This document shows positions 18,759 to 39,401 of a DNA stretch of 64,000 nucleotides, one piece after another. How positions within the stretch are numbered: the first letter of the stretch is position 1; each line of letters opens with the position of its first letter. The position numbers and the translations under genes were made by a program. This DNA is from Clostridiales bacterium (GTDB taxonomy: Bacteria > Bacillota > Clostridia > Christensenellales > Borkfalkiaceae): NCBI GenBank assembly GCA_015069495.1, contig SVIN01000008.1, positions 1-64,000 on the forward strand, read 5' to 3'. The notes beneath the pieces were generated by a model. That model saw nothing but the letters and a program-made list of their open reading frames with translations, made no database searches and was not told where the DNA came from.

Positions 18759-18778
18759 GGAGAAATGCTTATTTCTCC
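18759..18778 (-). other. Hairpin straddling the protease stop codon
   Basis: GGAGAAAT-AAGC-ATTTCTCC, perfect 8-bp stem whose loop holds the TAA stop of the 18769-26580 gene. No T-run follows, so it is perhaps an mRNA 3' structure rather than a terminator. Confidence 0.45.
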
Positions 18779-21700
18779 TCGTCGCCTTGTTCTTCATTTT
18801 CTTGGGGTTCCGTCTCAGTGGATTCTGCTTCAGGTTCTTGCGATTCCTCGTTGCTTTCTTCCGTTTCGATTTCCTGCGTTTCAGTTTCAGCGGGTTCTGC
18901 CACGATTTCTTCCGTTTCCTCGTTGCCTTCTTCCGCTTCGATTTCCTGCGTTTCAGTTTCGGTGAGTTCCACCTCGATTTCTTCCGCTTCTTCGTTGCTT
19001 TTCTTTACTTCGATAACCTGCGTTTCCGCCTTATTTTCGGTCTTCTTTTTCCAATACAACACTGCGAACGCCGCACCGCCTGCTACCAATACGAGGATAA
19101 CCGCAATCACGATACCTATACCCTTGCAACCGCTTTCCGTTACGTCGCTTGAGCTGTCTGCGCTGCTATCCGCGCTGTCTTCCACACTGTCGCTGGCGGA
19201 ATCCTCTGCGTCGGGGGTATCCACCACGGTCTTTTCCACTGTTACAGAAACACGTACGTCCTTACCGTTGCAGGTAACCACCACGTATCTCGTCAAAGAG
19301 CTGAGCGCATTGGTCGTCTTCAAGGACAATTGCGAACCGCTTGCCGTTTGTACCGAATAATCGTCGTAAATCATTTCGACAACCAATCCCGTCATATCGA
19401 AGGTATCCCCTTCTTTATATTCGGACTTATGCGCGGAATTGGAAGCCACACGCAATTCGACCAACTTCACCTTGATACCGAAGTAATCTTTCACAGAGCG
19501 CAATGCATTTTCCACGCTTTCCAACGTCGCTACGCGCGCATCGGTGATGAAATCTATCTGACCTTCCTTATTCTTTGCGTTGTTGAGATACAAACGCGCC
19601 GTCTTCACCTTTTCCGACCATTCTTCTACCATTGCCTTGTTCGCGTCGGTTTTATCCAACTGCGCCCAAGCATTGATATCCGTCACGGAAGGCAAGCTGT
19701 CGATGATGTCAATACATGTGCGGGTATCGTCTTCTGCCAAAATACCAATTGCGTTTCTCGTAGAGAAGTACAATTCATAAATATGGTTGTCATAGCCATT
19801 GCCGTTGGAAGGATAATTCATCGTCAACGTGCTGGTTTCACGAACGTATTTTGTGAAGTTGTACACTTCCGTTTCAAAGTTCGTATTGTAGTAACCCTTA
19901 TAGTATGCAGCACCGTTCAGCTCCGTCACAATCCCTTCAATCTTATCCGCGATTTCCTGACGGTATACCGCTTCAAGGGTGGGCGCTTGGATACTTTCAA
20001 AGGTATATTCCTTTATACCGCTTGCATAGAATGCGCTGTCACCGATTGTGTTGAGGGTGTAAGGAAGAGTTACTTTTTCCAATACGCCATTCTTCAAACC
20101 GTAGAACGCATACGAATCAACACGCAGCGTACCCGCTTTCACCGTCAAAGCCTTGTTTTCCGCTTCGTAAGCGGCAGGGTAGCAAATCACTTCGTATTCG
20201 CCTGCATCCTTATCGATAACGCGGTACAACACACCGTTTCCCACAAAATACTGCGCGTTGTTTTCTACCGTGAAGGTTGTCAAATTCTTCGAATTTGCAA
20301 ACGCACCATAGCCAATCTTCGTCAAGGTCGAAGGCAATACCACTTCACTTTCGCTGCCGCCGAAGAAAGCAAAGTTACCAATGCTTTCTGCCACGGGAAT
20401 ATTGATTTCGGTATAAGCCATACGGCCCGTCTGCGTACCAAACGCAAACTCACCAATCGTCTTTGCCGATTGCAAATCCAAGTCCGCAATTCCCGTACCG
20501 TAGAATGCTTTCGCACCAAACGTTACAATTTGATTCACGTTGACCGTCGTCAAGTCACGGCAGTTTTGGAAGGCTGCCTCACCGATTTCCACAACCGTTT
20601 CAGGTAAAGTCACCGCTGTCAAATCCGCACAGCCGTAGAACGCGCCGTTCGCGATTTTAGTCAAGCCGTCGCCAAGCGTTACCGTTTCAATGCCAGAGTT
20701 ATAGAACGTATATGCGCCAATCGTCTTTGCACCGTCGGCAAACGTCACTTCTTTCAAGTTTTTCAAATCACCGAAGGTATATCTGCCCATGGATTCAACC
20801 GCAGGCATTGCCACAGACGTCAAATCCGTACAACCGCGGAATACGTTGTTGCCCAAGGTTTTCACCGTTTCGCTAAGGGTCAATACGTACTTTCCGCCAG
20901 TCAAATCCCCGCGAAGCGCGGTACAATTTTCAAAGGCATTGTTACCAATCGTCGTTACACCGTTTGCGGTGAAATTGCTCAACGCGGATTCTGCAAACGC
21001 ATACGCACCAATCTTCGTTACACTTTCAGGCAATACCACAAACGAAAGTCTCGACGATTTGAATGCATTGTCGGGGATTTCCGTCAGCGTTGCGCCGTTG
21101 AAGTTGATGGAGCTCAACCCCGATTTTTCAAACGCGCCTGCGCCAATCTTCGTTACGTTGGCGGAAAGCGTCACAGTTTCCACGTTACTACCTGCAAACG
21201 CATATGCGCCGATTTCCGTCACGGTATCTTCCACCGTCAAAGCAGTCACCGTAGGATTTACGTGCAATAATTTGGTTTTGTTTGCGTTATACAATACACC
21301 GTTTTCCTGCACGTACTTGGCAGAACCTGTTTCCAGAACAAGCGTCATACCCGCGAAAGGTACGCCTGCAAAACGCAAGTTTTCAATATCCATGTCATCG
21401 TTGATGGCAATTGTCGTAATGCTTGTACCTGCGAAGATATCCGTACCCCATATTTCCAAGCCCTTCAACGCATCCAATGCAACCAACGAAGAACCTGCAA
21501 ACGCTCTATCGCCAATCACACGAATATTTTCGCCGTTGAAATTCACGGTAAAGTTCGCGCCCTTAAGGTTCGTACCGCAATTTTTAAACGCTTCCGCACC
21601 AATTTCAAAGGCAAGGGTTTTGCCAGAGTCGAACTTCACGCCCTCAAGGTTGATACAACCCAAGAACGCACCCGCACCGACCTTGGTCGTACAGATGATG

Positions 21701-24700
21701 ATTTCATCACGCAATGCCGTACAGTCTTGGAACATGTAGTTGCCGATTGCCGTGAATTTACCGATTTCTACCGAGCTGAGGTTTTTACAGCCTGCAAAGA
21801 CGTAATTACCGCTCATGTACAAGCCCGTCAAATCCACCGTTTCAAGGGCTGTATTGGCAAATGCATAATGGTGCATTGTACCGATACTGGGCATATCCAC
21901 TACCTCGGAAAGGCTGGTACAATCCGCAAACGCGTAATGCGCAACCGTAACCGTCTTCACGTTGGAGAAATCCAACTTCTTCAAATTAGGACAGCCGTAG
22001 AAAGCATATTCGTAAATCATGGAGATATCCGCCCAGTCAATCTTTTGGTTGACCGTACCGCCGTTTTCACGGTGATTGAGGCTTACAAAATATACTTCTT
22101 CCAACGCTGTACAATTCATAAACGCGTATTCGCTGATTTGCGTTACCGATTTAGGAATGATGATTTTCTTGATGTTGTTATTTTCCTTAAACGCTTCCGC
22201 GCCGATATACCAAATGTTCATATCGGTAGGAATTTTCAAGATATCCGTCGACTTGTTACATTCTACACCGCAATCGGGGCAGAGGTTGATAAGGAACTCC
22301 GTACCCCCTTCAGCCTGCGCGGACTTCAACTCGCTAGGAGCCCAAGCTTCACCGCAATCGGGACAAAGCCATGCGTTGTAACCCGTGCCTTTGTATGCGC
22401 TTAAGGTGTAGTTGCTGACCGTAAATTCGTTTTGTACGCGCAAGGTTACGCTGGTCGAATACAAAGTCGATTCCCACGAGCCGTCCGCTTTCTTACGTTC
22501 GACACTGGCGGTGATACTGGTCGTACCTTTCTTCAAGGTCGTTACTTTACCATCTTCCACCGTAGCAACCGAGGGGTCGGTACTGTTCCAAACCAAACGC
22601 AAATCCGTCATCGGGTGATACCAGGGATCGGTTTCTACAGGCAGGAGAATTTCTTCCCCGACGTTGACCTTGACCATACCCGTTGCCTTTGCAAGCGCGT
22701 CTTGGTTGGTTTTAATTACCCCAAACGAGATGGACGGTACGTTGACCAAAGCCGTATTCTTTTGATCGGTTACCGTGACCTCGATGAACTTCGGCGTGCC
22801 TTTGCCCGTGCTGACAATGACCTCTGCCGTACCCGCTTTCAAACCAACGATTTCGCCGTTTTTCACCGCTACGCAGTCATTGGTGCTGGACCATACGAAG
22901 TTGGAAGCGTCCCCTTCGCCTGCGAAGTTCAGTTTCACCTTATATGCTTCATATTGATCCACGGTCAATTTATAATTGTTTTTATCCAACGTCAAATCGG
23001 TATCCGTTACGATGGTGAAATCCTTCACGTCCTTCAACGGAGCGCGGTTTGCCGCGTTGATATCCACTTGATATAAACAGCTGTTGATTGCGTAATCGTC
23101 TACCTGCAAGTAGAATTGCGAGCCGTACTTTTCATAGATATCGGTGATTTCAATCGAGACCGTCGTCGTACCGTTGGGGTTCGCGTTGCGGATGGGGGTG
23201 GGATAATCCGTCGCCAACATCAAGGACAAATCGCCCTGCGCATCCTTTTGAGGATAGCACAACATCAACGCCTGCGCGTAATGATTGTCGTAAACGTCTA
23301 CGTCCAAATAGATACGCTGTTTTTCCTTTTTGCCGTCTTTATAATTGTAATAACGTACGCGCACGTCTTCCAAGATGGGCGCTTCGTAGTCAACGGTAAA
23401 GGTAAATTGATAGGTGTTTTCTTCCTTTGCCTTTTCGCCTTCCGCGGGAGTATCCATGAAGAAATCAAATTCCATGCGATACTTACCATTTGCCATCAAG
23501 CCTTCCGCTTCGGGGCTGAGTTCCAACTCTACGTTCGCAGGAGTGCCTTGACCGCCGCCCGCGTACGCTTTACCGATACGGTTGCATACGTCTTCAAGAA
23601 TCAATTCGCCCGTTTCTTCGCTGTACAATCTGTATTTCACCACACGCGCGTTTCTCAAAAGACCTGCGTAAACCGCCTTAATCGCGGTAGAAGTCGTATA
23701 GTTTTCCGCATTGCCGTTCCCGTAATAAATGTTGTAACGGGATACCGAGCATTTCGCCTCGTCAACGTACATAGGTTCTGCATCGTCAGGGAGCAAGTAT
23801 ACGTAACCGCCCATAGGCAAAATGTACGTTTCGTTGTAGTAGCTGGTGTAAGGCAACGTTTCCCAAACACTCGCCTTGATTTTATCTTCTTCTTTTACCG
23901 ATGCGTCTTGTTTACTTTGCGCCACTTCAAACGCGGTGTAATCAAGCATCGGCGCCGCTTCCCAATCCCCATAGAAAGCAAGGAAAGGAATGCTGAGGTC
24001 GCATTGGCCTGCCGTGGCGGAGTTGAGTTTCAAGAAACCTTCCACGTACATACCGTTTTCAAAGCAGTCGTCGATGTATTTCTTTTCGCTTTCGTCCAAG
24101 GTGATTTGTACGTTTACCGTTACCGTGGTCTCTGCGCCAACAGTGATTTCACTCACTTGCTGACCGCCTACCGTCCAAACGGTTTTTGCCTTATCTAGCA
24201 TGCGCGCTTGTTCGCTGACCGTCAATTTATCACTGGACAAAGTTTCCGTCATAATCAATTGGTCGGTGCTGAATTTTAACTCGGTCGCGCCAAAATTGGT
24301 CACCTTAAAGGACATGGTATAAACGCCCGTCTTATCGTCATCATCGCCAAGTTCCAGCTTCGGACGGTTATCGTTTTCTGCATTTTCCGTCCAAAGGTAA
24401 GCCTTCGTACCGCCGATAACACGTTCCATACGCGCGATACCCGCACCCTGCTTACGAGGAGAATAAGGCAAGCCGTCTTGATCGTAAGCGGTCGTTGCCG
24501 TACTCATAATCATCTGCATCGCAAGACGGTTGATTTCTACGGGGTCAGTAATCCCCAAATCCGTTTTCAAGTAGCTTCTCACAAGCGCCGTGAAGCCCGC
24601 CATGTTGGGCGACGCCATCGAGGTACCGCTTTGTTCACCGTAACCGCCGGGTACGGTGGAAGTAATTTCACCGCCGTGCGCCGTGATTTCGGGTTTTAAT

Positions 24701-26580
24701 TTCAAATCGTGCGTAGGTCCCCAAGAGGAGAATTCACTCATGAAAGGCCCTGCTTTCAAATTTTCGTCCAAACGAATCGTACCAACACGGTTCACCGCGC
24801 CCGCAACCATTGCGTTCCCTGCGTTCATGTTGATGGAAACAGAAGGTACGGGGTTTTCGATTTCACCGAGGTTCATACGGATAACACCCGCAACGTTGTT
24901 GTAAATAATAACACCCGCCGCACCCAACTGCATTGCGATTTCTACCTTTTCTTGGAAGGTGGAATCACCGCGCTTGATGAGGGCGATTCTGGGTTTCCCT
25001 TCTTCTTTCAAGAGCGCACGCACCTTCGAATCGTAGTCCGCCGCCTGACCGTTGCCGGGGATAACGACGTATTCAAATTCACTCTTACCAGGATATGCCT
25101 TTTGCAAATCTTTTACGAAGTCGAAAGGATTGCCGTCGATATCACGGGACTCTTCAAAAAAGACAAACGCTTTGTTTTCGGTATTTTCGTTGGCTACCAT
25201 GTAACTTGCCTTTTGACCATTTACACTGGCAACGGACAAGGATGCCGCAAAGGTCGAGGGCGAACCTACCGTACCCGAATCGGGATTGGAGGCAAGGTTG
25301 GTACCATACACACCGCCATAACCCGCACTGTAATCGTTACTTGCCGCACAGACAAGGCTGATGCCCGCTTCTTTGATGCTTTCGTAAACGCGGTTGAGCA
25401 TTTCACCTTCATCGTCGCCATCATTCGTGGTGGTGAAACCGCAAGACGTACCCAAACTCATGTTGATAACGTCTACGTTCAACATCACGCAATCGTCCAA
25501 TGCCGCCACGATATCGGGCGCAACTGCACCGCCAAGGTCGGGATCGTCCAAATCGTCGGTGAATACTTTACAAATCACCAACTGCGAATCGGGAACAACC
25601 CCTTTAAACGTTTTATCAATAGGGTTGCCGTCTTTGTCGGTATAACCGTTGGTATCGTAACCGCCGATGATACCCGCAACGTGCGTACCGTGGTTGGAAT
25701 ACGAGGGATATACGTCGGGATCGTCGTCTGCGTAGTCGTACGCAAAAGGTACTTTCGCGCTGACGTATACGTCCGAAACGTCCAAGGAACCCGAACGCTG
25801 TTCGGCAATCATGTCCTTATCGTTCAACACGTTCTTCACGTAATCTTTATCCCAAGCCGCGTTATTTCTACCATTATCGGTTGCAAAATCTTGGAAAGCG
25901 GGATGGGTGTAATCCAACCCCGTATCCAATACAGCCACAACCGTGCCTGCGCCGTATGCTTCATAACCATCGGAATTGTAAATACCCGTTTCGTATACGC
26001 TGGTTTCGTTGGTGACAACGTTGTCGCCGTCAGAAACCGTTTCCACCGTCTTCGGTTCTGCGTAAGCGGTAGTAATAACCACGCTTTCCACCCCTTTCAT
26101 CTTTTTGATGTCGGAAACGTATTTGGTATCGATTTCAATGGCAACACCGTTCAGGACGTTGCTGTAACGTCTTTCCAGTTTATACGAGATACCCTTTTTC
26201 TTCAACGCGCTTAAGAATGCGTCCTGTTCGTCCGCGATATCGGCCGAAGCAAGATTACCGCCCCAAGTGGACAAATAATCTAAGACGTTTTCACCATTCG
26301 CCCTATCTACCATATTTTTACCCGACAGCGTAACGATAACCGAGCGCGTTTCATACTTCGGCGCGGTATCTTCCGCTTTCATAACCGACGTATTTAAGTA
26401 GCTTTGCATCAACGCCGAGGTATCATATTGCCCCGTCACGTTTTTGAACGATACGTCCGTCGAGGTTATCGTGGTGGAATTCTTTCCGTCTGCATTTGCC
26501 AAAGCGCGTTCTAACACAATCGAAGACACCGACACTAAGGACAATACACCGCAAAGAATGCGTTTTAACGTTTTCTTCAT
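18769..26580 (-). CDS. Giant S8 subtilase with PA insert, Ig-like, zinc-ribbon and LRR regions and C-terminal membrane anchor
   Basis: 2603 residues. Sec signal peptide (1-30), I9-type propeptide (about 78-172) and S8 catalytic domain with Asp219 (V-L-D-T-G), His297 (H-G-T-H-V-A-G) and Ser654 (G-T-S-M-A-S-P). A protease-associated insert lies at about 465-610. Fn3-like regions follow, then two Big_2-type domains (about 1205-1385), a CPDCG/CPDCG zinc ribbon (about 1400-1440), BspA-type LRR_5 repeats (about 1445-2200), a helical part and a Big_3-like domain (about 2345-2430). The end is a Ser/Asp tether, Gly-Cys-Lys-Gly, one membrane helix, KKK and about 95 acidic residues made of 24-residue repeats, which would be cytoplasmic. 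A surface protease, probably auto-activated; substrate unknown. Confidence 0.93.
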   Translation of the reverse strand: MKKTLKRILCGVLSLVSVSSIVLERALANADGKNSTTITSTDVSFKNVTGQYDTSALMQSYLNTSVMKAEDTAPKYETRSVIVTLSGKNMVDRANGENVLDYLSTWGGNLASADIADEQDAFLSALKKKGISYKLERRYSNVLNGVAIEIDTKYVSDIKKMKGVESVVITTAYAEPKTVETVSDGDNVVTNETSVYETGIYNSDGYEAYGAGTVVAVLDTGLDYTHPAFQDFATDNGRNNAAWDKDYVKNVLNDKDMIAEQRSGSLDVSDVYVSAKVPFAYDYADDDPDVYPSYSNHGTHVAGIIGGYDTNGYTDKDGNPIDKTFKGVVPDSQLVICKVFTDDLDDPDLGGAVAPDIVAALDDCVMLNVDVINMSLGTSCGFTTTNDGDDEGEMLNRVYESIKEAGISLVCAASNDYSAGYGGVYGTNLASNPDSGTVGSPSTFAASLSVASVNGQKASYMVANENTENKAFVFFEESRDIDGNPFDFVKDLQKAYPGKSEFEYVVIPGNGQAADYDSKVRALLKEEGKPRIALIKRGDSTFQEKVEIAMQLGAAGVIIYNNVAGVIRMNLGEIENPVPSVSINMNAGNAMVAGAVNRVGTIRLDENLKAGPFMSEFSSWGPTHDLKLKPEITAHGGEITSTVPGGYGEQSGTSMASPNMAGFTALVRSYLKTDLGITDPVEINRLAMQMIMSTATTAYDQDGLPYSPRKQGAGIARMERVIGGTKAYLWTENAENDNRPKLELGDDDDKTGVYTMSFKVTNFGATELKFSTDQLIMTETLSSDKLTVSEQARMLDKAKTVWTVGGQQVSEITVGAETTVTVNVQITLDESEKKYIDDCFENGMYVEGFLKLNSATAGQCDLSIPFLAFYGDWEAAPMLDYTAFEVAQSKQDASVKEEDKIKASVWETLPYTSYYNETYILPMGGYVYLLPDDAEPMYVDEAKCSVSRYNIYYGNGNAENYTTSTAIKAVYAGLLRNARVVKYRLYSEETGELILEDVCNRIGKAYAGGGQGTPANVELELSPEAEGLMANGKYRMEFDFFMDTPAEGEKAKEENTYQFTFTVDYEAPILEDVRVRYYNYKDGKKEKQRIYLDVDVYDNHYAQALMLCYPQKDAQGDLSLMLATDYPTPIRNANPNGTTTVSIEITDIYEKYGSQFYLQVDDYAINSCLYQVDINAANRAPLKDVKDFTIVTDTDLTLDKNNYKLTVDQYEAYKVKLNFAGEGDASNFVWSSTNDCVAVKNGEIVGLKAGTAEVIVSTGKGTPKFIEVTVTDQKNTALVNVPSISFGVIKTNQDALAKATGMVKVNVGEEILLPVETDPWYHPMTDLRLVWNSTDPSVATVEDGKVTTLKKGTTSITASVERKKADGSWESTLYSTSVTLRVQNEFTVSNYTLSAYKGTGYNAWLCPDCGEAWAPSELKSAQAEGGTEFLINLCPDCGVECNKSTDILKIPTDMNIWYIGAEAFKENNNIKKIIIPKSVTQISEYAFMNCTALEEVYFVSLNHRENGGTVNQKIDWADISMIYEYAFYGCPNLKKLDFSNVKTVTVAHYAFADCTSLSEVVDMPSIGTMHHYAFANTALETVDLTGLYMSGNYVFAGCKNLSSVEIGKFTAIGNYMFQDCTALRDEIIICTTKVGAGAFLGCINLEGVKFDSGKTLAFEIGAEAFKNCGTNLKGANFTVNFNGENIRVIGDRAFAGSSLVALDALKGLEIWGTDIFAGTSITTIAINDDMDIENLRFAGVPFAGMTLVLETGSAKYVQENGVLYNANKTKLLHVNPTVTALTVEDTVTEIGAYAFAGSNVETVTLSANVTKIGAGAFEKSGLSSINFNGATLTEIPDNAFKSSRLSFVVLPESVTKIGAYAFAESALSNFTANGVTTIGNNAFENCTALRGDLTGGKYVLTLSETVKTLGNNVFRGCTDLTSVAMPAVESMGRYTFGDLKNLKEVTFADGAKTIGAYTFYNSGIETVTLGDGLTKIANGAFYGCADLTAVTLPETVVEIGEAAFQNCRDLTTVNVNQIVTFGAKAFYGTGIADLDLQSAKTIGEFAFGTQTGRMAYTEINIPVAESIGNFAFFGGSESEVVLPSTLTKIGYGAFANSKNLTTFTVENNAQYFVGNGVLYRVIDKDAGEYEVICYPAAYEAENKALTVKAGTLRVDSYAFYGLKNGVLEKVTLPYTLNTIGDSAFYASGIKEYTFESIQAPTLEAVYRQEIADKIEGIVTELNGAAYYKGYYNTNFETEVYNFTKYVRETSTLTMNYPSNGNGYDNHIYELYFSTRNAIGILAEDDTRTCIDIIDSLPSVTDINAWAQLDKTDANKAMVEEWSEKVKTARLYLNNAKNKEGQIDFITDARVATLESVENALRSVKDYFGIKVKLVELRVASNSAHKSEYKEGDTFDMTGLVVEMIYDDYSVQTASGSQLSLKTTNALSSLTRYVVVTCNGKDVRVSVTVEKTVVDTPDAEDSASDSVEDSADSSADSSSDVTESGCKGIGIVIAVILVLVAGGAAFAVLYWKKKTENKAETQVIEVKKSNEEAEEIEVELTETETQEIEAEEGNEETEEIVAEPAETETQEIETEESNEESQEPEAESTETEPQENEEQGDEEK
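18840..18995. repeat. 72-bp coding repeat in the acidic tail
   Basis: gatttcctgcgtttcagtttc recurs at 18868 and 18940 (72 bp, 24 codons), with partial copies on both sides. It encodes the Glu/Thr-rich cytoplasmic tail of the protease. Confidence 0.85.
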
Positions 26581-30058: not shown

Positions 30059-32461
30059 TTAGTCTTCCTTTTTCTTCAAAACTGCAACAGCTGCAACGCC
30101 AAGCGCCGTAAGTGTGCAAGCGATACCGCCTACTACGCTGCCGCAACCGCCTTTTTCTTCTGCCGAACTGCTATCTTCCACAGTAGAATCCGTCGTGCTG
30201 TCTGCCGTCGAATCCGTCGAACTATCAGGCGTTGTCGTAGGTTCTTCTGCTTCCGTATACACAGCAGTCAACGTAACGTCTTCCAATTTCAATCTGTCAA
30301 CCGTCTTGTTCCACGTACCCGTGTAACCTTCCTTTTCGGGAACTGCGGGCAATACGAGGCTGCCGATTGTTGCCTTGGTAAAGGTGATGGGCGCAACGCC
30401 GATATCTTCACCGTTTTCACCAACGAAAGTGATGGTGAATACTACCTTCACCGTTTCTACCGTAAAGGTATAATTTTGCATCTGGAATACGTTAGGTACA
30501 CGTTCCTTAAAAGCATAACCTTCGGTTGCGGTTTCTTCGGGCAAGCATGCATTCAAAACGTCTACCATTTCATCTGCCGAGTAAAGCACACCGTTTTCAA
30601 CGTCTTTCATCATACCGAATACCAACGTTTCTTCCGTACCATCCAAGTGTTTAACCGTTACCGTGTAAGGAACGGGTTTCCAGCTTGCGTACAAGGTCAA
30701 TACAGATTCGGGCATCGTTGCGGGAGCGGGGTTACCGTCTGCGTCTACCCAACCTGCGAAAATCAAGCTTTCAGCTTCAGGCGTAGGCAAGCTATCCAAT
30801 GCATTGCCAGCCTTTACCGACATTTCATTGAACTTCGTATTGCCAACCATAAGATTCAAGGTATAACCAACTGCGTATACTTCTGCAGTTACGTCTTCCG
30901 CCAACACTTTACCGTTTACCTTATCGCTTGCAGAAATGTCCGCTTTGATGGTCAAAGTAATGGTGTCGCCAAAATTCGAACAAAGCGAGTTTACGTAATT
31001 CTTGTGGATGTACAAAATTAAGGTATTGCCTCTCACTTCCAGCAACGTAGGATTCTTGAATACGTCATTGCCATTCTGTTGGGTGTCATTTTCCTTCATA
31101 GGGGACGTGCTGTATTCATAATCCGTATCGTCTACTGTGGTATTGATTTCATACAAGGATTTGCCGTTGAGCAAGATACTCTTTCTAACAAGGTCTCTCG
31201 AACCGAAGTCAAAATAAGCAAGGTCGAATGCGTCGGGATTCGTTTGTCCCTCGGGAATCAGAGGATTCAATTGCCAAGCGTCGGACGTGATATCGATACG
31301 ATACAATTCTTTTTTATCACCTGCTTCCATTGCCCATCCTACGTTTACGTCCGATGCATACATCAAAGTTTCAGGGTTCGCAAACGCACCGCTGGGTTGA
31401 CGGGTAAAGGTTACGTCTTCCGTCGTCTGATATACGGTATCTGCTTTACCGTATGCAGGGAATTGACAGCCCGCCAAGATGGTTACTTCTTGTACGGAGT
31501 CAATCAAACCTTGTGCTTTCATCCATTCGGGCCAACGTGTACCAAAAGGCACGCCCCATGCATTGTAGTATACTTCGCCTTGACCGCCTTGCTTCATCAA
31601 AGCACCAAGCTTTTGACCGTCAACCAAAATATAATCGTAGTAATTAATGGAAGCAAGAAATGCCTTATCAACAGCCGTTGTTGCAGGAGCCATTTCATAG
31701 TTAGAGAAGAGGAAGCCCAAAGACTTATCCTCCTGACCGTACTTACCATCGATACCCGTAACCGACGTTTCGATCACCGTCTTTTCGCCTACCACTTTTG
31801 CGCCGCCATACGAGTTTTGCATCCACTTGATATCTTGAGAAATTCCCCAAGTATCCGTACCGTTCGTGATTGTCAAGTCCTTCGACAATTCAATCGACGT
31901 TACTTCGGAAAGGTAAGAAGTAGGGATGTACATATCGATTGCGTTACCATTTGCAGCAGCATGACACGTGAAGTTCACGAAGATAGGAGCATAACAAGTC
32001 GCTTTATTACCCGCGGTTTCATCTGCGATGTTGGGTTGCATGATACGTTGACCTTCCAAAAGCCCATCAGCCGACATGCCCGTCCAAGAAATTTTCTTTT
32101 CACCACCATTTGCAAGCATTTCAGCGTATTCCTCACGGTGCTGAGCAACCGTTTTACCGTTTACCTTAATATAGTCAAGCAAGTAAGCATTTGCATTTTC
32201 ATTTGCGCATTTACCACCGCTCGTCCAAGCGTTCGTTTTGTCGCCGCCTACCCAAAAACGGTACAATCCAGCTTCCTTATAATCGCCAACCGTACCCCAA
32301 TCCGCTGAAGAAATCGTTTCCGTCATATCGATGGTATAAGTAGCCGCATCTGCCATGATGACCGACTGATTATCCAATACGTTGTACGTACCCGCGCCGA
32401 TTGTGAATGCAAGCGCCGCGCCAAAAGCTACGCCTACGATTCTTTTCGTCATTTTTTTCAT
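30059..32461 (-). CDS. Adhesin-like surface protein with InlB-type repeat and Cys/KKK C-terminus
   Basis: 800 residues. Sec signal peptide (about 1-39, ending A-D-A), then about 500 residues of beta-rich sequence with three similar segments. An InlB/Listeria-Bacteroides-type repeat (about 545-600, F-A-G-W-V-D..G..L-Y-A-S-W) and a beta domain follow, then a Thr/Ser/Asp tether. The end is K-G-G-C-G-S, a Gly/Ala-rich hydrophobic helix with L-T-A-L-G, and K-K-K-E-D. It is probably membrane anchored with the main body outside. The signal peptide shares the Y-N-V pattern with the next gene. Ligand unknown. Confidence 0.87.
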   Translation of the reverse strand: MKKMTKRIVGVAFGAALAFTIGAGTYNVLDNQSVIMADAATYTIDMTETISSADWGTVGDYKEAGLYRFWVGGDKTNAWTSGGKCANENANAYLLDYIKVNGKTVAQHREEYAEMLANGGEKKISWTGMSADGLLEGQRIMQPNIADETAGNKATCYAPIFVNFTCHAAANGNAIDMYIPTSYLSEVTSIELSKDLTITNGTDTWGISQDIKWMQNSYGGAKVVGEKTVIETSVTGIDGKYGQEDKSLGFLFSNYEMAPATTAVDKAFLASINYYDYILVDGQKLGALMKQGGQGEVYYNAWGVPFGTRWPEWMKAQGLIDSVQEVTILAGCQFPAYGKADTVYQTTEDVTFTRQPSGAFANPETLMYASDVNVGWAMEAGDKKELYRIDITSDAWQLNPLIPEGQTNPDAFDLAYFDFGSRDLVRKSILLNGKSLYEINTTVDDTDYEYSTSPMKENDTQQNGNDVFKNPTLLEVRGNTLILYIHKNYVNSLCSNFGDTITLTIKADISASDKVNGKVLAEDVTAEVYAVGYTLNLMVGNTKFNEMSVKAGNALDSLPTPEAESLIFAGWVDADGNPAPATMPESVLTLYASWKPVPYTVTVKHLDGTEETLVFGMMKDVENGVLYSADEMVDVLNACLPEETATEGYAFKERVPNVFQMQNYTFTVETVKVVFTITFVGENGEDIGVAPITFTKATIGSLVLPAVPEKEGYTGTWNKTVDRLKLEDVTLTAVYTEAEEPTTTPDSSTDSTADSTTDSTVEDSSSAEEKGGCGSVVGGIACTLTALGVAAVAVLKKKED

Positions 32462-32525
32462 AATTTGCCTCCTGATGTTTTCTCAATATTTTTTTGCGGA
32501 AAAACCACAATATATTCCGTATATT

Positions 32526-32554
32526 ATTATACAATAAATTTTTCTATCTGTAAA
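32526..32554 (-). promoter_or_regulatory. Promoter of the 800-residue surface protein gene
   Basis: Minus strand TTTACA (32554-32549), 17 bp, TATAAT (32531-32526). The remaining gap 32462-32832 otherwise holds only the downstream gene's terminator. Confidence 0.75.
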
Positions 32555-32765
32555 GATAGTTTTTAAGTTTTTTTTATGGAAAACGTTTCAAATTTTACGC
32601 ACTTCATGTCATTTTTATCTTAACGCACGTTTCCATTGTCGTTTGCGCGCGCTTTTTTGTACCGTTGCCGACTTACTCTACCCCACCTCTAGTGCGTTAG
32701 GGGCGCATCCCCATGAAGATTTATCACTTCGTTCCAGAGTAACCTTAATGATAGGTAAATGATCG

Positions 32766-32797
32766 AAAAATAGAGCGCCTCTATGCAAGAGGCGCTC
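32766..32797 (-). terminator. Terminator of the OB-fold/PD-repeat protein gene
   Basis: Minus strand GAGCGCCTCT-TGCAT-AGAGGCGCTC, 10-bp perfect stem, then TATTTTT. Confidence 0.92.
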
Positions 32798-32832
32798 CAC
32801 CTTTTTAGATAAACTTGTCTTGTGAAACGAAA

Positions 32833-35800
32833 TTATTCGTTATCTTCCTTCTTTTTAAGAAGCGTTACCGCCGCAACACCAAGCGCCGTAAGACCGCCTG
32901 CGATACCGCCAACTACGCCCGAGCAACCGGGAATCATGTTCTTGATGGAATCAGGAACCATACCGGTAACTTTGTCTTTTACCTTGTCAACGATCGAGGG
33001 ATCTTCTGCAGGTTCGTCGGGAGTCGTGGGTTCATCGGGAGTCGTGGGCTCGTCGGGAGTCGTAGGCTCGTCGGGAGTCGTAGGCTCGTCGGGAGTCGTA
33101 GGCTCGTCGGGAGTCGTGGGCTCGTCGGGAGTCGTGGGCTCGTCGGGAGTCGTAGGCTCGTCGGGATTCGTAGGAACGTCAGGCGTATCCGTAGGATCGT
33201 CGGGATTCGTAGGATTGTCAGGCGTATCCGTAGGATCATCGGGATTCGTAGGATTGTCAGGCGTATCCGTAGGATCGTCGGGATTTGTAGGATCATCGGG
33301 ATTCGTAGGAACGTCAGGTTCCGTAGGCTCATCAGGAGTGATGATTTCCGTCAATCTTGCGTTCTTTAATTGGATTGTACCATTGTAAACGGAAAGAATG
33401 GAACGCAAGGAAATTTCATCGCCAACTGCGGGTTTCGTTTCCATGCTATCGAATCTTGCACCTGTCCACATATCATACAAACCGTAAACAAGGATGCGGT
33501 TGCCTTCTTCATCTTCGATATACATGTTACCATAGGTGGTATTGGTGATTTCTACAACGGTACCGCTAATGCAATACTGTCTCAAGGTGTCCCCTGCTAT
33601 CGACAATGCATTGATTTCAGCAATCGTAAGATCGGAAAGGTTTGCGGGAAGACTTGCTTCAGGGTCAACGTCAGGTTGTACAACATTTTTAAGTTCAGCA
33701 TCTGCAAATTGGTTAACACCCTTAAACGCACTTACTTCACCATAGAACTGAACTGTTGCGCCTACCTGAGGTTTCTGATTATAACGCATTGCGCTAAAAT
33801 CTTTATAGTTTGCGTTGTTTGCAATCTTCATACCGTAGATTTGAATTTCTTTACCGTTTGCATCTGCGATATACAAGCTACCCTTATAAGGATCTGCATA
33901 ACGTACAACCGTACCTTCTACGTAATACTTGTTGCCAGCAGCTGCTTCAACGTCCAAAGCCAACGCTTCTTCAATCGTCAAGGTCGAGCCGTCTGCAGGA
34001 ATTGCGGGAACCGCATTCGGATCGGACAATACAACGTCAATTACGTCTGCTTCCCAATTTTGGGCCATAACTACGAATACGTAGGATTCGCCTTCTGCAA
34101 CAGTGAAGTTGTAAGGCATTTCAATCATTTCAGAACCATACATGGTTTCCATCATGATAAAGCCGTTGGTTTCGCCTTCCGCCCAGTTAAGAACGTATTC
34201 ACCAGGGGTGGTAACCTGTACCTTAACTTCTCCAGCAACGTCGATTGCAGTAGCACCCATTTCCAATTCGGGAATCACTTCTACGTAAGGCGTAATGGTT
34301 ACGTCAACCGTCAAAGCTGCGCTGTCCGTCGTTGTAAAGGTAATTTCAAAAGGAGCCATAGGCGAATAGTGGTCTAATACCATACCGCTTTGAGACATCC
34401 AGTTCATACCAACCTGCAAGTTGGTTACGGTCGTATCATCCCAAGTAATTTGATAAAGGCCAGTGAAGTTCGTCAAATCAGGCGTACCGATTGCGGTAAT
34501 CGTTTTCCCAGCGGGGATAGAAACCGACGTCGTACCATTCATATTCAACGCGATAGGCGCAGGACCGAATTCAAGCAATTGCGCGTTCTTCAACTGAACC
34601 ACGCCATTGTAAGTAGCAAGAATCGATTTTACTTTGATTTGATCGCCAACTGCGGGTTTTTCTTCCATCTTATCAAATCTGTTGCCATTCCAATAATCAT
34701 ACAAACCATATACGTACAACTGATTGCCTTCGCTATCTTCGATATATACGTTGCCATACGTCGTGTTTTTAATTTCGGTAATAACACCCGTTACGTAATA
34801 TTGTCTTAACGTATCGCTCGTTACGGTCAATTCGTTGATTTCCGCAATCGAAAGTTCAGAACTATCTTCAGGAAGAGCCGCTTCAGGATCCGTTTCGGGT
34901 TGCGCAATGATGGTGTATTCAGGATTAGCGAATTGGTTAAGACCATTATATGCACTGATTTCACCGTAGAACTTCACCGTGGCCCCTACTTGAGGTTTAT
35001 TTTCATACCAGAAATCCTTGAACGTTTCAACGTATTCATCCGAGAATTCATCCGCAGGATATACTTTCTGCATACCGTAAATTTGGATTTTATTATTTTC
35101 CGCGTCCTTAATATACAAAGAACCCTTGTATACGTCTGCATATTCGGCAACGGTACCTTCCACGTAATATTTGTTGCCTGCAGCAGCGGTAATATCCAAT
35201 GCCAATGCTTGCGCAATCGTCAAGGTCGAACCATCAGCGGGAATACCTACGTTAAAATCAACCGTGTCAGCTTCACCGTTTGCGGTTTGTACGGTGAATC
35301 GGAATTTCGCGCCGTTGGTAAGCGTTACCGTATAAGGAAGCGCAATTTCTTCACCGTCTACAACAATCTTACCATTCGTTTCGCCTTCAGCCCAGTTCAA
35401 TACGTGTACGCCGTTGGTCTTCAATTCCACCGTCGTACCAGCAGCATCTGCTACTTCTACGCTGTTTGCACCCTTTACAACTTCTTGCAAGGTTTCCACT
35501 TCTTCACCTGCAGGAGCTGCGTAGTACGTAATGGAGTTAATCATCGCTCTCACAGCGCCGCTTACCGTAGCTACGCTTACAGTTTTCGTGGAAGAAGTAT
35601 CAACCGTGATTTCATCATACGCGCCATCATTCGAACTCTTCGACAATGTATACGTCGTACCATTAACGGAAAGCTTACTAGTCTTTGCCTTATATTTTGC
35701 AGCTTTAATAACAACCTGCACAACGTCATCAGGTACAGTAAACGAGAAGGATGCCGCTACACTGCTCGTACCAAGTTTGATACAAGAATTCCCCTTCTCA

Positions 35801-36081
35801 TCACACGCGCCCGTATACATTTTCGATGCGCCCGAAATAGACAAGGTGTAAGAACCTACCGTTTCCGAATAGGACTTGTCTTCGGTTGTATCCGTACCAT
35901 CCTTATGACCTGCACTGCCGTTTGCACCAAATTCAAACGTTGCAACAGCCGTCATTTCTGCTTCCGCCGATGCGGTAACCGTAGCTTGATCGTTGTATAC
36001 GTTGTATACAGCCGTCGTACTTGCGCCAACCAATACGGTCGACAAAGCAACCAACAATAATTTTTTGGCAATTTTGTTCAT
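32833..36081 (-). CDS. Surface protein with repeated OB-fold-like domains, Pro-Asp stalk and Cys/KKK C-terminus
   Basis: 1082 residues. Sec signal peptide (about 1-39, ending T-A-S-A). A Fn3/CBM-like N-terminal domain is followed by two long repeats, each with a pair of OB-fold-like modules marked Y-Y-V-E-G-T-V..Y-K-G-S-L-Y-I and I-Q-I-Y-G..P-Q-V-G-A-T-V. Such modules occur in exported bacterial proteins and secreted nucleases, but no catalytic part is seen here. A Pro-Asp-Glu-Thr stalk (about 905-1020) leads to a short amphipathic helix and P-G-C-S-G, a Gly/Ala-rich hydrophobic helix, and K-K-K-E-D-N-E. The stalk probably spans the wall. Ligand unknown. Confidence 0.88.
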   Translation of the reverse strand: MNKIAKKLLLVALSTVLVGASTTAVYNVYNDQATVTASAEAEMTAVATFEFGANGSAGHKDGTDTTEDKSYSETVGSYTLSISGASKMYTGACDEKGNSCIKLGTSSVAASFSFTVPDDVVQVVIKAAKYKAKTSKLSVNGTTYTLSKSSNDGAYDEITVDTSSTKTVSVATVSGAVRAMINSITYYAAPAGEEVETLQEVVKGANSVEVADAAGTTVELKTNGVHVLNWAEGETNGKIVVDGEEIALPYTVTLTNGAKFRFTVQTANGEADTVDFNVGIPADGSTLTIAQALALDITAAAGNKYYVEGTVAEYADVYKGSLYIKDAENNKIQIYGMQKVYPADEFSDEYVETFKDFWYENKPQVGATVKFYGEISAYNGLNQFANPEYTIIAQPETDPEAALPEDSSELSIAEINELTVTSDTLRQYYVTGVITEIKNTTYGNVYIEDSEGNQLYVYGLYDYWNGNRFDKMEEKPAVGDQIKVKSILATYNGVVQLKNAQLLEFGPAPIALNMNGTTSVSIPAGKTITAIGTPDLTNFTGLYQITWDDTTVTNLQVGMNWMSQSGMVLDHYSPMAPFEITFTTTDSAALTVDVTITPYVEVIPELEMGATAIDVAGEVKVQVTTPGEYVLNWAEGETNGFIMMETMYGSEMIEMPYNFTVAEGESYVFVVMAQNWEADVIDVVLSDPNAVPAIPADGSTLTIEEALALDVEAAAGNKYYVEGTVVRYADPYKGSLYIADANGKEIQIYGMKIANNANYKDFSAMRYNQKPQVGATVQFYGEVSAFKGVNQFADAELKNVVQPDVDPEASLPANLSDLTIAEINALSIAGDTLRQYCISGTVVEITNTTYGNMYIEDEEGNRILVYGLYDMWTGARFDSMETKPAVGDEISLRSILSVYNGTIQLKNARLTEIITPDEPTEPDVPTNPDDPTNPDDPTDTPDNPTNPDDPTDTPDNPTNPDDPTDTPDVPTNPDEPTTPDEPTTPDEPTTPDEPTTPDEPTTPDEPTTPDEPTTPDEPTTPDEPAEDPSIVDKVKDKVTGMVPDSIKNMIPGCSGVVGGIAGGLTALGVAAVTLLKKKEDNE
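33013..33293. repeat. In-frame stalk repeats: 18-bp and 39-bp arrays
   Basis: 33013-33165 contains about nine 18-bp units (tcgtcgggagtcgtgggc and variants), encoding P-T-T-P-D-E. 33177-33293 contains three 39-bp units, encoding D-T-P-D-N-P-T-N-P-D-D-P-T. Both lie in the Pro-Asp stalk of the surface protein and have no spacers, so this is not CRISPR. Confidence 0.93.
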
Positions 36082-36197
36082 AGTTTTTTCTCCTTTGTGT
36101 TTCTTTGCCTAAAAAATGATTAGGACGCAACTGAGTTTTTCACTTACGCCCACGCCTAAAAAGTTACATTAATAATTTAACATTATCTTATAATACT

Positions 36198-36226
36198 ATT
36201 TTAGCACACCCACGGCAAAGTGTCAA
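36198..36226 (-). promoter_or_regulatory. Promoter of the OB-fold/PD-repeat protein gene
   Basis: Minus strand TTGACA (36226-36221), 17 bp, TAAAAT (36203-36198). Confidence 0.82.
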
Positions 36227-36270
36227 ACCTTTTATGAGGCATATTGTAGAAATTATAAAAATTTTTCTCC

Positions 36271-36303
36271 AAAAAAAAGGGCTGAATTTTCATCCAACCC
36301 TTT
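36271..36303 (-). terminator. Terminator of the duplicated-domain surface protein gene
   Basis: Minus strand AAAGGGTTGGAT-GAAA-ATTCAGCCCTTT (12-bp stem with two G-U pairs and a GAAA tetraloop) continuing into T8. Confidence 0.92.
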
Positions 36304-36311
36304 CTCCAAGT

Positions 36312-39300
36312 TTAATCTTCTTTCTTTTTAAGCAATACAACGGTTGCCGCGCCAAGCGCAGTCAACCCGCCTGCTACACCGCCAACCATACCGAAACAAC
36401 CTTTCAATGCGTTGTCACTGCCAGGTTGTGCAGTATCGCTTGCGCTATCGTTTACAGAATCCGAGGTAATATCGCTATCGCTTGCGGTATCACTGTCACC
36501 GTCTTCGACTGTGGACGAATCCTGCGTGTTGTCAGAGCTGTCCTCAGGGAGAATTTCCACCTTTTCAAAACGAGGTTCCAAATGTACTTCACCCGTTACA
36601 ACACTGGTTTCAAAATTCCACAATTCATCACCATTGTACCAACCCAAGAATACGTACTTGTAACCGTCTCCGCCGCTCTTCGTCGGTGCGCTAGGGATTT
36701 TATCCGCGGGAATAAGTTCGCCGTATGCAACCTTCAACCCAGTATATTCATCGTCAAAGTATACACGGTAAACGCGTTTTGTTTCCGACCACTTCGCAGT
36801 CAAATTCATATCCTGCGTAACAGCGTTTGTGAAATCCCATTCCTCGTCACCGAAATACCAACCTACGAAGGTATAGCTTGCCGCTTCCGTCGTTTCTTTT
36901 ACAGGGTCTGCGGGTTTATCCACGGTGAAGCCATAAGGCACCGTCACGGGATTTTCTCCGTCAAACGTAACGGTATATTTCATCACAGCATTTTCTTCGT
37001 TGGTAACGTAACCATATTGAGGCTCCTCTTCCGTTACAATGAAAGTGATTACCTTTTTCGCAACGTTTCCAAATGGATCTTCCGCCTGAATCGTCCAAGT
37101 ATGCGTACCTTCCACCAATCGACCGCGCATATCCAACGCGCCTTGCGACCAAGTTTTGCTCAACGTAACGCTACCGCTGTTATCCGTTGCCGTAACGTCA
37201 AGCATAGGTTTCGTACCAACGGTCGTCTTTACTGTGTCAAAATTCACGTTGATGACAGGCACTTCGTTGTCTGCTTCTATAATGCTAACCTTTACAATTT
37301 TTGTGGCGAGGTTGCCATAGAAATCCTTCGCGGTTAAGGTCAAGTTGTACGTACCTACCGCCGTAGGCGTACCGTTTGCGTTAAGTTCAACACCGTCATC
37401 CCAAGCGTAGGAAACCGCAACGTTACGTTTTTCCTGCGCATCGTATGCCGTTGCGCCTAAGGTCAAAGCTTCACCCAATTCCACCGCGTACGCTTCACCG
37501 CTGGTAATCGCGGGCGCAACGCCGTCGTTGGCTTTCAAGGTATAAGTAATGCTGTCTACGTAAATTTTGATAAAAGCATTGGAACGGAACGCCAATTCAA
37601 ATTTATCCAACATGCCGTCCTTGGAAATCTTGGCAAAATTATCTTCATGGTAAGGTATCGTAACCGTTGTCCATATATCTGTTGCGGTTGCAACGCCTGG
37701 CTGATGAATCCACTCATTCGGTCGGGTAGGATCGGGGATACGTACCTCGGGATATTTACCCGTATTTGCCACATTGCTTTCAAGGTATACGCGGAACTGC
37801 AAGTTTTCCAATAAAGTTACGGGTATTTTTGCATTGAAGAATTCCAACAAAATCCCGCAACTGCCTTGATCATTAGGACGTATGATTTCCAATACTTCGT
37901 TTTCGTAGCCCGTAGGAATACCTGCCGCCGCCGCTTCTTCCGCCGTATAAGTGTTCACCTCAGTAGCGCCATAAGCCACGTAGTGTCCGTCTGCTTTTTG
38001 TGCCGTGTAATCACACGCAAAATCACTCGAATCGTCCTCAGCGGGAATTTCCACCTTTTCAAAACGAGATACCAAATCCAACGTACCCGTTACAACGTTG
38101 GTTTCAAAATTCCACAATTCATCACCGTTGTACCAACCCAAGAATACGTACTTGTAACCTTCTTCGGCTTCCATAGTCGGTTCATTAGGGATTTTACTTT
38201 CGGGAATGCGATTGCCGTAAGACACCTGCAAACCGATATCTTCACCGTCAAACGTAACGGGATATTTCGCCACTGCGTTTTCTTCGTTGGTAACGTAACC
38301 GTATTGAGGTTCGTCTTCCGTCACGATAAAGGTAATAACTTTTTCCGCGGTATTGCCAAACACGTCTTCCGCCTGAATCGTCCAAGTATGCGCACCTTCG
38401 GTCAATCGACCGCGCATATCCAACGCGCCCTGCGACCAAGCTTTGGTCACGGTAACGCTACCGCTGTTATCCGTTGCCGTAACGTCAAGCATAGGTTTCG
38501 TACCAACGGTCGTCTTTACTGTGTCAAAATTTACATTGATGACAGGTGCTTCGTTGTCCTCTTCCATCACACTGACCTTTACCGTCTTCGTCGCAAGGTT
38601 ACCATAAAAATCCTCTGCCGTTAAGGTCAAGTTATACGCACCCACTTGCGCAGGCGTACCGTTTGCATTGAGCGCAACACCGTCATCCCAAGCGTAGGAA
38701 ACCGCAACGTTACGTTTTTCCTGCGCATCATATGCTGTTGCGCCTAAGTTCAAAGCTTTCCCCAATTCCATTGCGTACGTGTCGTCGCAGGTAATTACGG
38801 GCGCAACACCTTCATTGGCTTTTACCGTATAACCAATGCTGTCTACGTAAACGTCGATAAAGGCATTAGAACGGACTGCCAATTCAAATCTATCCAACAT
38901 ACCGTCTTTGGCAATCTTGGCAAATTTGCTTTCATTGTAATTTACCGTAACCGTTGTCCATTCGTCTGTTGCGGTTGCAACGCCTGGCTGATGAATCCAT
39001 GCATCTTTTTGTGTCGGGTCAGGAATACGCACCTCGGGATATTTACCCGCATTTGCCGCATTGCTTTCAAGATAGACGCGGAATTGCAAGTTTTCCAATA
39101 AAACGACGGGTACTTGTTCCTCAGAAAAATCTAACAAAATCCCGCAACTGACTTGATTATTAGGACGTATGATTTCCAATACTTCGTTTTCATAACCCGC
39201 AGGGATACCCGCTGTTGCAGCCTGCTCCGCCGTATAGGTATTTATCCCAGTAGAACCATACGCCAAACCGGTCGACTGCGCCGTATACTTACACGCAAAA

Positions 39301-39401
39301 TCACGCATGTCTGCCGAAGCCATTTCCAACGTTGTTGGCGCCATACACCCGACCGCCGCACAAGAAAGCGCTGTCAATAATACAGCTTTTAACTTTCTCA
39401 T
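36312..39401 (-). CDS. Surface protein made of two near-identical halves, with Cys/KKK C-terminus
   Basis: 1029 residues. An N-terminal signal peptide has a possible lipobox A-A-V-G-C (Cys19) or a later A-S-A cleavage site. Residues 34-399 recur at 463-828: a carbohydrate-binding-like domain, then Ig-like/cadherin-like domains with E-D-F-Y-G-N and D-V-F-G-N turns. InlB-type repeats (F-L-G-W-Y-N-G) close each half, with one extra in the second. An acidic Ser/Asp tether leads to K-G-C-F-G, L-T-A-L-G and K-K-K-E-D. GAGGAGG lies inside the last codons of the phosphatase gene upstream, so the two are translationally coupled. Probable glycan-binding adhesin. Confidence 0.88.
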   Translation of the reverse strand: MRKLKAVLLTALSCAAVGCMAPTTLEMASADMRDFACKYTAQSTGLAYGSTGINTYTAEQAATAGIPAGYENEVLEIIRPNNQVSCGILLDFSEEQVPVVLLENLQFRVYLESNAANAGKYPEVRIPDPTQKDAWIHQPGVATATDEWTTVTVNYNESKFAKIAKDGMLDRFELAVRSNAFIDVYVDSIGYTVKANEGVAPVITCDDTYAMELGKALNLGATAYDAQEKRNVAVSYAWDDGVALNANGTPAQVGAYNLTLTAEDFYGNLATKTVKVSVMEEDNEAPVINVNFDTVKTTVGTKPMLDVTATDNSGSVTVTKAWSQGALDMRGRLTEGAHTWTIQAEDVFGNTAEKVITFIVTEDEPQYGYVTNEENAVAKYPVTFDGEDIGLQVSYGNRIPESKIPNEPTMEAEEGYKYVFLGWYNGDELWNFETNVVTGTLDLVSRFEKVEIPAEDDSSDFACDYTAQKADGHYVAYGATEVNTYTAEEAAAAGIPTGYENEVLEIIRPNDQGSCGILLEFFNAKIPVTLLENLQFRVYLESNVANTGKYPEVRIPDPTRPNEWIHQPGVATATDIWTTVTIPYHEDNFAKISKDGMLDKFELAFRSNAFIKIYVDSITYTLKANDGVAPAITSGEAYAVELGEALTLGATAYDAQEKRNVAVSYAWDDGVELNANGTPTAVGTYNLTLTAKDFYGNLATKIVKVSIIEADNEVPVINVNFDTVKTTVGTKPMLDVTATDNSGSVTLSKTWSQGALDMRGRLVEGTHTWTIQAEDPFGNVAKKVITFIVTEEEPQYGYVTNEENAVMKYTVTFDGENPVTVPYGFTVDKPADPVKETTEAASYTFVGWYFGDEEWDFTNAVTQDMNLTAKWSETKRVYRVYFDDEYTGLKVAYGELIPADKIPSAPTKSGGDGYKYVFLGWYNGDELWNFETSVVTGEVHLEPRFEKVEILPEDSSDNTQDSSTVEDGDSDTASDSDITSDSVNDSASDTAQPGSDNALKGCFGMVGGVAGGLTALGAATVVLLKKKED
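36920..39302. repeat. 1287-bp-offset direct duplication inside one gene
   Basis: Roughly 36920-38015 and 38207-39302 are near-identical direct repeats. Example anchors are gaccgcgcat at 37121 and at 38408. The offset is 429 codons and the frame is kept. Long stretches match almost base for base, indicating recent duplication or ongoing conversion. Confidence 0.88.

Follow-up and report, generated by a model that had tools for sequence, protein, structure and literature searches.

Within a 64,000-nucleotide stretch of a Clostridiales genome (positions 1 to 64,000 of contig SVIN01000008.1, assembly GCA_015069495.1; hereafter the window), three large proteins with unrelated bodies end in a segment that combines an invariant Gly-Cys pair, a hydrophobic helix and a basic end, which we refer to as the GC tail. 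We find that this tail is a genuine tag on unrelated proteins and that it occurs in several families of a single order of Clostridia. A group of CPBP proteases that we call type B is a strong candidate for the enzyme acting on it, and we think it probable that the pair is the Clostridia counterpart of MYXO-CTERM and myxosortase, that is, a sorting tail processed by type B that stands in for LPXTG and sortase. We lean only slightly towards a fuller version of this reading, a complete Cys-based anchoring system of Clostridia in which a G-C-[GSK]-[SG]-x-[VI]-G motif, a helix and a Lys/Arg end on many unrelated proteins per genome would be paired with an unnamed CPBP clade, replace sortase, move between families as a two-part package and, in the family labelled f18, work with a second enzyme.

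Sortase is the textbook route by which proteins are fixed to the Gram-positive surface. Under the preferred reading, the tailed proteins would instead be exported through N-terminal signal peptides and arrested in the membrane by the hydrophobic segment and basic end, an export route and topology predicted from the protein sequences. Type B, as a dedicated glutamic-type CPBP intramembrane protease, would then process them at or near the invariant Cys, and the mature protein would be kept at the surface by a group on this Cys, most likely a lipid provided by another enzyme. In the nearly sortase-free genus to which the source genome belongs (the source genus), the tail system would replace LPXTG and sortase. 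If true, this would amount to a second, Cys-based form of surface anchoring in uncultured gut Clostridia with a testable candidate enzyme, would show that the myxosortase principle also applies in Clostridia and would explain how such a genus could retain large secreted proteins.

The GC tail in the window and in the source genome

The three proteins are encoded on the minus strand, and each begins with a signal peptide recognized by eye. The gene at 30059..32461 specifies 800 residues with an Flg_new (InlB-type) repeat, a Ser/Thr/Asp tether and a tail at 30062..30151 (Cys 773); the gene at 32833..36081 specifies 1082 residues with a Pro/Thr/Asp tether, whose (P-T-T-P-D-E)n repeats precede a tail at 32836..32931 (Cys 1053); and the gene at 36312..39401 specifies 1029 residues with Ig-like and Flg_new repeats and a Ser/Asp-rich tether before a tail at 36315..36404 (Cys 1002). 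Identified from the translations and by profile matches, these protein ends read GGCGSVVGGIACTLTALGVAAVAVLKKKED, PGCSGVVGGIAGGLTALGVAAVTLLKKKEDNE and KGCFGMVGGVAGGLTALGAATVVLLKKKED, respectively. They share the pattern G-C-x-[GS]-x-V-G-G...L-K-K-K-E-D with 19 invariant columns. Mean Kyte-Doolittle values of 1.8-2.4 mark the stretch from the Cys to the basic end as hydrophobic. The best body-to-body BLASTP match among the three proteins has an E value of 0.28, in agreement with the original prediction of a near-identical tail on unrelated bodies. The tails are not recent copies of one another: pairwise, 56-66 of 90 nucleotides are identical (24-34 of 90 differ), and in the three pairs the codon is also the same for 13 of 23, 9 of 19 and 13 of 23 of the residues in common. 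These many synonymous differences indicate that the likeness of the tails is maintained at the protein level. As had also been predicted, no LPXTG motif was seen in the translated tails of the window.

A looser version of the tail is present in a fourth window protein, a 2603-residue subtilase (S8) with PA, fn3_5 and BspA-type leucine-rich repeat (LRR) domains encoded on the minus strand at 18769..26580. Its segment, SGCKGIGIVIAVILVLVAGGAAFAVLYWKKK in translation (19033..19134, minus strand; Cys 2485 of 2603), has the GC, helix and KKK elements ascribed to it by the original prediction and is followed by an acidic stretch that is presumably cytoplasmic. This protease is the weakest member of the set: it is missed by profile A1, built from the three window tails, and is absent among the rows at E<=0.01 of the broad profile A4, and its match to profile A3 involves a profile that itself includes this segment. 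Its nearest NCBIfam model is that of an LPXTG-anchored serine peptidase (SGO_0316/0317), at 247.9 bits against a cut-off of 1400.

The window is a contig (C47) of a 1.74 Mb bin of 50 contigs that is 76% complete. The tail is more than a chance likeness: across this genome A1 gives nine matches at E<=10, namely the three window tails themselves, the GC tails of four additional proteins (E 3e-10, 5e-6, 0.002 and 0.1), one internal match and one without a resolvable tail. Broader profiles bring the total to 15 tails plus the protease at 18769, including one (L311) in a 63-residue frame that may be a fragment. At this scale the description of the tails as almost identical, which is accurate for the three window proteins, does not hold: the constant parts are the G-C pair, a small residue at the second position after the Cys (C+2) and, except in one of the 15, a basic cluster 21-26 residues further along. 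A scan of eight further tailed proteins gave a GDSL lipase domain in one, an InlB-type repeat above cut-off in another and no above-threshold Pfam match in the remaining six. Restriction to one gene family by descent had been named beforehand as contrary to the prediction, and the tail is not so restricted; its bearers comprise a GDSL lipase, InlB/Ig-like repeat proteins, proteins without a Pfam match above cut-off and, in the looser form, the subtilase-LRR protein.

A CPBP protease clade and its co-occurrence with the tail

The profile search of related genomes that the original prediction had called for recovered the tail in the source genus and beyond. Among 61 relatives, best hits were read at 29 loci, and 24 of these, every one from the source genus (24 of its 25 best hits, the exception being G031), end in a GC or SC tail; none of the four best hits from other families has a C-terminal GC or SC tail, one of them having an internal GC. 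When 297 genomes of the order were searched with A4, 16 of the 29 loci read had GC tails, in families f1, f19, f29 and f32 and once in f18. The database records looked up for five loci of relatives are metagenome-assembled genomes of Clostridia or Clostridiales, two of which name sheep colon and roe deer rectum.

From a search of 59 genomes with profile A8, which contains 39 GC tails, we read 76 rows. Outside the source genus, type-B-positive genomes contributed 38 of these rows, 35 of them with a Cys tail; such tails were also found in 19 of 19 rows from f18 and in none of 19 rows from type-B-negative genomes of f1, f19 and f32, which were re-read with more upstream sequence and include two internal IscU-like matches. 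Most of these Cys tails have GC, a few SC and one DC. In one case (G176, L298) the tail was found at an E value of 0.167, so that weak unread matches can conceal real tails. Among 109 tabulated tails, all picked for their Cys, the preceding residue (C-1) is Gly in 105 and the C+2 residue small in all 109; the basic cluster begins 20-30 residues past the Cys in 108, and the helix varies. Thirteen further type-B-negative genomes with an A4 row at E<=0.01 were also read, and 12 lack a Cys tail, having plain anchors or other sequence, among them G226 with a PPTGD motif; the thirteenth, G212, may have one.

The f18 tails are distinct, with a median of 25 residues from the Cys to the end versus 27-30 elsewhere and Gly at C+5 in 3 of 20, which suggests that f18 may use a different enzyme. 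In this family (G053, G082, G104, G123, G141 and G157; for example L255-L268) the tails have a variant GC[KG]xx... motif and several end in KKK[FY].

In the source genome, type B is a protein of 273 residues encoded outside the window, downstream of tuf (G000:C3:60351-61160), and it matches the CPBP model PF02517 at 68.0 bits (cut-off 22.4). With a type B profile (A7) and a threshold of E<=1e-15 for the order-wide count, 25 of the 297 genomes examined from the order have type B; it is present in 19 of 37 members of the source genus and in 2 of 398 genomes of a phylum-wide sample, one of which is the source genome. At a laxer 1e-8, four outgroup genomes (G042, G046, G048 and G059) also match A7 (E 1e-13 to 3e-9) and were not counted. 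All 37 aligned type B sequences share the EE, R, H and H residues without exception, and these were seen by eye in six others that lie outside the pattern match. Like the myxosortase family, type B has a CPBP/Rce1-like domain carrying the EE..R, H and H motifs. Among sorting-enzyme models it comes closest to MrtJ and Mrt_core, and the second CPBP kind of the genus, type A, has MrtS among its best; a comparison of A7 with solved structures gave no CPBP match.

Type B forms a single clade (support 99/98), recovered in 100% of 200 bootstrap trees, in a tree of 51 rows that holds 33 of 43 type B loci and leaves out L045, L048, L072, L074, L163, L164 and L212-L215. In an earlier tree type B needed two changes because a long, poorly extracted row, L045, sat inside it. 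The clade mixes families: G129 (f29) adjoins the source genus, G001 and G002 of the source genus adjoin the f29 genomes G089 and G110, and G083 (f19) falls without resolution among f1 genomes. This mixing suggests horizontal transfer, and a Cys tail is present in all six, as though enzyme and tail moved as a pair. No constant partner gene was found at 28 type B loci. At three f32 loci, L174 (G277), L176 (G131) and L178 (G213), type B lies directly after or overlaps a ComEC-like metallo-hydrolase gene, as judged by eye.

We tabulated type B and GC tails across the source genus and families f1, f18, f19, f29 and f32, a scope chosen after the order-wide searches with A4 and for type B and from which G212 (f31) falls outside. 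In 97 genomes, counting type-B-negative genomes with only weak unread matches as tail-less, 38 have both, 5 type B only, 15 the tail only and 39 neither. A set of 83 genomes that were read or free of hits, which drops G054, G068, G138, G181, G224, G235, G298, G308, G313, G323 and G327 as well as the unread type-B-positive G030, G163 and G292, gives 38, 2, 15 and 28 in the same order (Fisher P 4e-9); the G054 row, read later, has no tail. When type B was shuffled within genus or family strata of the 83 genomes, 0 of 100,000 trials reached the observed overlap, although these P values are rough because genomes are taken as independent within strata. For read or hit-free genomes at least 90% complete, the counts are 24, 2, 2 and 20, both genomes with the tail only being f18, and 24, 2, 0 and 20 without f18. 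Accordingly, in f1, f19, f29 and f32 at this completeness, type B is present in 24 of 24 GC-tailed genomes and no tail is seen in 20 of 20 type-B-negative genomes. Outside the source genus, 20 of 23 type-B-positive genomes have a Cys tail that was read.

The association also holds within narrower groups. In the 97-genome set, and in the order used above, the counts are 3/0/0/6 in genus g28, 3/1/0/5 in genus g26, 8/1/0/12 in f32 and 18/2/9/9 in the source genus; restricted to read or hit-free genomes, they are 3/0/0/5, 3/0/0/3, 8/0/0/6 and 18/1/9/9, respectively. Type B presence varies within g26, g28 and f32 and tracks the tail. Together with the unrelated bearers of the tail, the co-occurring type B clade supports the original prediction of a CTERM-type signal with a possible dedicated enzyme. 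Its expectation that a membrane enzyme would follow the tail across genomes is borne out by type B across genera and fails for f18; type B co-occurs phylogenetically with a Cys-type CTERM signal, with f18, nine members of the source genus and perhaps G212 as exceptions.

Other candidate partners were considered and set aside. Sortase was found in 1 of 37 members of the source genus, in a bin with 6% contamination, and in 12 of 24 outgroup genomes; it was rejected as the partner in the source genus, in a search that did not extend to f29, f32 and G083. Rhomboid proteases are present in 9 of 74 genomes searched and in 3 of 37 GC-tailed ones, the remaining 34 lacking them, and were rejected because they do not track the tail. 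CPBP proteases occur in 54 of 61 genomes, mainly as types A and B in the source genus. Type A, encoded beside rlmH, was the first candidate and was rejected as a specific partner because 208 of 297 genomes match its profile, whereas far fewer bear tails.

Known sorting systems and alternative explanations

The GC tail resembles LPXTG signals in being tripartite and in terminating tethered surface proteins with a signal peptide, and differs from them in having Cys in place of LPXTG and in a source genus with almost no sortase. With GlyGly-CTERM and rhombosortase it would share a C-terminal signal and an intramembrane protease, cleavage being predicted here; GlyGly-CTERM is not known to have an invariant Cys, and 34 of the 37 GC-tailed genomes searched lack rhomboid. 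Closer parallels are Synergist-CTERM/MrtS and CGP-CTERM/MrtA, in which Cys-containing CTERM signals are paired with CPBP proteases, although the signature motifs and lineages of Synergist-, JDVT- and CGP-CTERM differ from the Clostridia tail. JDVT-CTERM and MrtJ are likewise described as a pair (PMC11980579). The combination of a Cys CTERM signal and a CPBP protease is common to these systems and ours, with type B at least 40 bits below their model cut-offs.

The nearest comparison is with MYXO-CTERM and MrtX of Myxococcota. MYXO-CTERM proteins are described as exported by Sec and arrested by their helix; a second enzyme, for which the authors favour Lgt, modifies the Cys, and a CPBP protease cuts beside the Cys, so that the modified Cys retains the protein (PMC11980579). 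The GC tail is alike in its invariant Cys within a short Gly-rich motif, its helix and its basic end, and in having many unrelated secreted candidate substrates per genome and a CPBP-family protease as candidate partner. The MYXO-CTERM motif is GCGC (PMC11980579), and some f32 tails read GCGCGG. The layout of a Cys motif, helix and basic C-terminus on a secreted protein was found here, secretion being judged from signal peptides seen by eye. In contrast to MYXO-CTERM, whose end is Arg-rich, the end of the tail in the source genus is Lys-rich and often has Glu or Asp, and the named relatives are Clostridia or Clostridiales rather than Myxococcota. Since these hosts are not Gram-negative, no type II secretion step would be expected. 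Full-text literature searches on C-terminal sorting with CPBP, myxosortase or Clostridia, whose coverage excluded most subscription papers, showed no account of a comparable Clostridia system among the papers listed.

Among existing models, we found no NCBIfam or Pfam entry dedicated to the GC tail. The LPXTG_anchor model TIGR01167 matches 24 of 36 tails at E<=1, and the tail of the 36312 protein just equals its cut-off. Of ten tails picked from five genera, five exceed this cut-off (one entered with a wrong letter before GC) and three exceed that of TIGR03382 (MYXO-CTERM), one of the three also equalling the 20 of TIGR03901. None of the four window tails matches TIGR03901 or TIGR03382, and the 30059 tail weakly matches the MXAN_2561 family (11.7 bits, cut-off 150). 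The LPXTG_anchor and TIGR03382 matches are cross-fire from the helix, basic end and Cys, and public annotation may therefore label proteins as LPXTG-anchored in sortase-free genomes; current models can mislabel GC tails as LPXTG or MYXO-CTERM.

Several observations weigh against processing of the tail by type B. Cleavage, its site, lipidation of the Cys and the role of type B are each putative. By cut-off, type B falls outside the named Mrt families, unlike a myxosortase: two type B proteins score 23.3 and 27.4 bits with Mrt_core (cut-off 100) and 33.0 and 27.4 with MrtJ (75), and type B reaches 19.2 with MrtS (130) and 16.8 with MrtP (250). A Cys-tail gene lies within about 1.5 kb of type B at 1 of 28 loci (L171, G129). 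Only GC tails went into profiles A4 and A8, so that part of the GC signal stems from the selection itself; the contrast among genomes serves as the control. The second type B match of the phylum sample, G561, is weak (E 4e-20). In f18, Cys tails occur in 6 of 6 genomes examined without type B at E<=1e-15, and a motif scan of 20 stretches covering f18 tails and CPBP genes gave no CPBP by the tails and no further candidate; the CPBP genes of G053 and G082 adjoin an rlmH-like gene, like type A. Nine members of the source genus, 61-89% complete, have tails without type B where incompleteness would lead one to expect 5.0 losses (P(>=9) = 0.044), so a few may truly lack it. G212 (f31, 92% complete) has no type B and may have a GC tail: a 72-residue frame that is perhaps a gene (L332) closes with WGCKGTTL...NKRMSKEAL, in which GC, helix and basic end follow one another. 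This genome slightly lowers our confidence. Conversely, type-B-positive G078 has no tail match, the single match in G031 is not GC, and no tail row was read in type-B-positive G030, G163 and G292.

These exceptions bear on two alternatives, both of which we consider unlikely. The tail could be a plain membrane anchor, an unprocessed stop-transfer helix ended by a basic stop, in which the Cys, uncleaved, has a packing role or is S-acylated and the co-occurrence of type B has a different cause. It does show every feature of a simple single-pass anchor, tailed genomes without type B exist in f18 and among the nine genus members, and the protease at 18769 carries its extra acidic tail; yet ordinary anchors in type-B-negative f1, f19 and f32 genomes lack GC (the 19 rows above), C-1 is almost always Gly and C+2 always small in these Cys-chosen tails while the helix varies, and type B tracks GC tails within genera. 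Somewhat less likely still is a Cys-type sorting signal whose main enzyme is another protein, for example an Lgt-like transferase or a different protease, with type B as an accessory missing from some lineages. The f18 tails and the imperfect congruence of tails and type B in the source genus fit this explanation, against which neither sortase nor rhomboid tracks the tail, type-A-like CPBP proteases are general, and every GC-tailed f1, f19, f29 or f32 genome that was read and is at least 90% complete has type B. That the tails are relics of sortase substrates with a decayed LPXTG motif seems hardly credible: several reach or exceed the TIGR01167 cut-off through their helix and basic end, but they have no LPXTG and instead an invariant Cys near the motif position, sortase is nearly missing from the source genus and the tail is kept in several families.

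Other features of the window

At 48-1592 a long plus-strand open reading frame rich in Cys and Arg lies antisense to an open minus-strand frame, which opens with a hydrophobic segment and contains numerous repeats of the type PTPISINMPAAQAQK. Five further window proteins, at 5423-5884, 5916-8753, 8809-10938, 13684-18141 and 49672-51885, are secreted and lipoprotein-like by eye, with an N-terminal signal and an early Cys. They carry no GC tail, and N- and C-terminal Cys anchoring may therefore be mutually exclusive.

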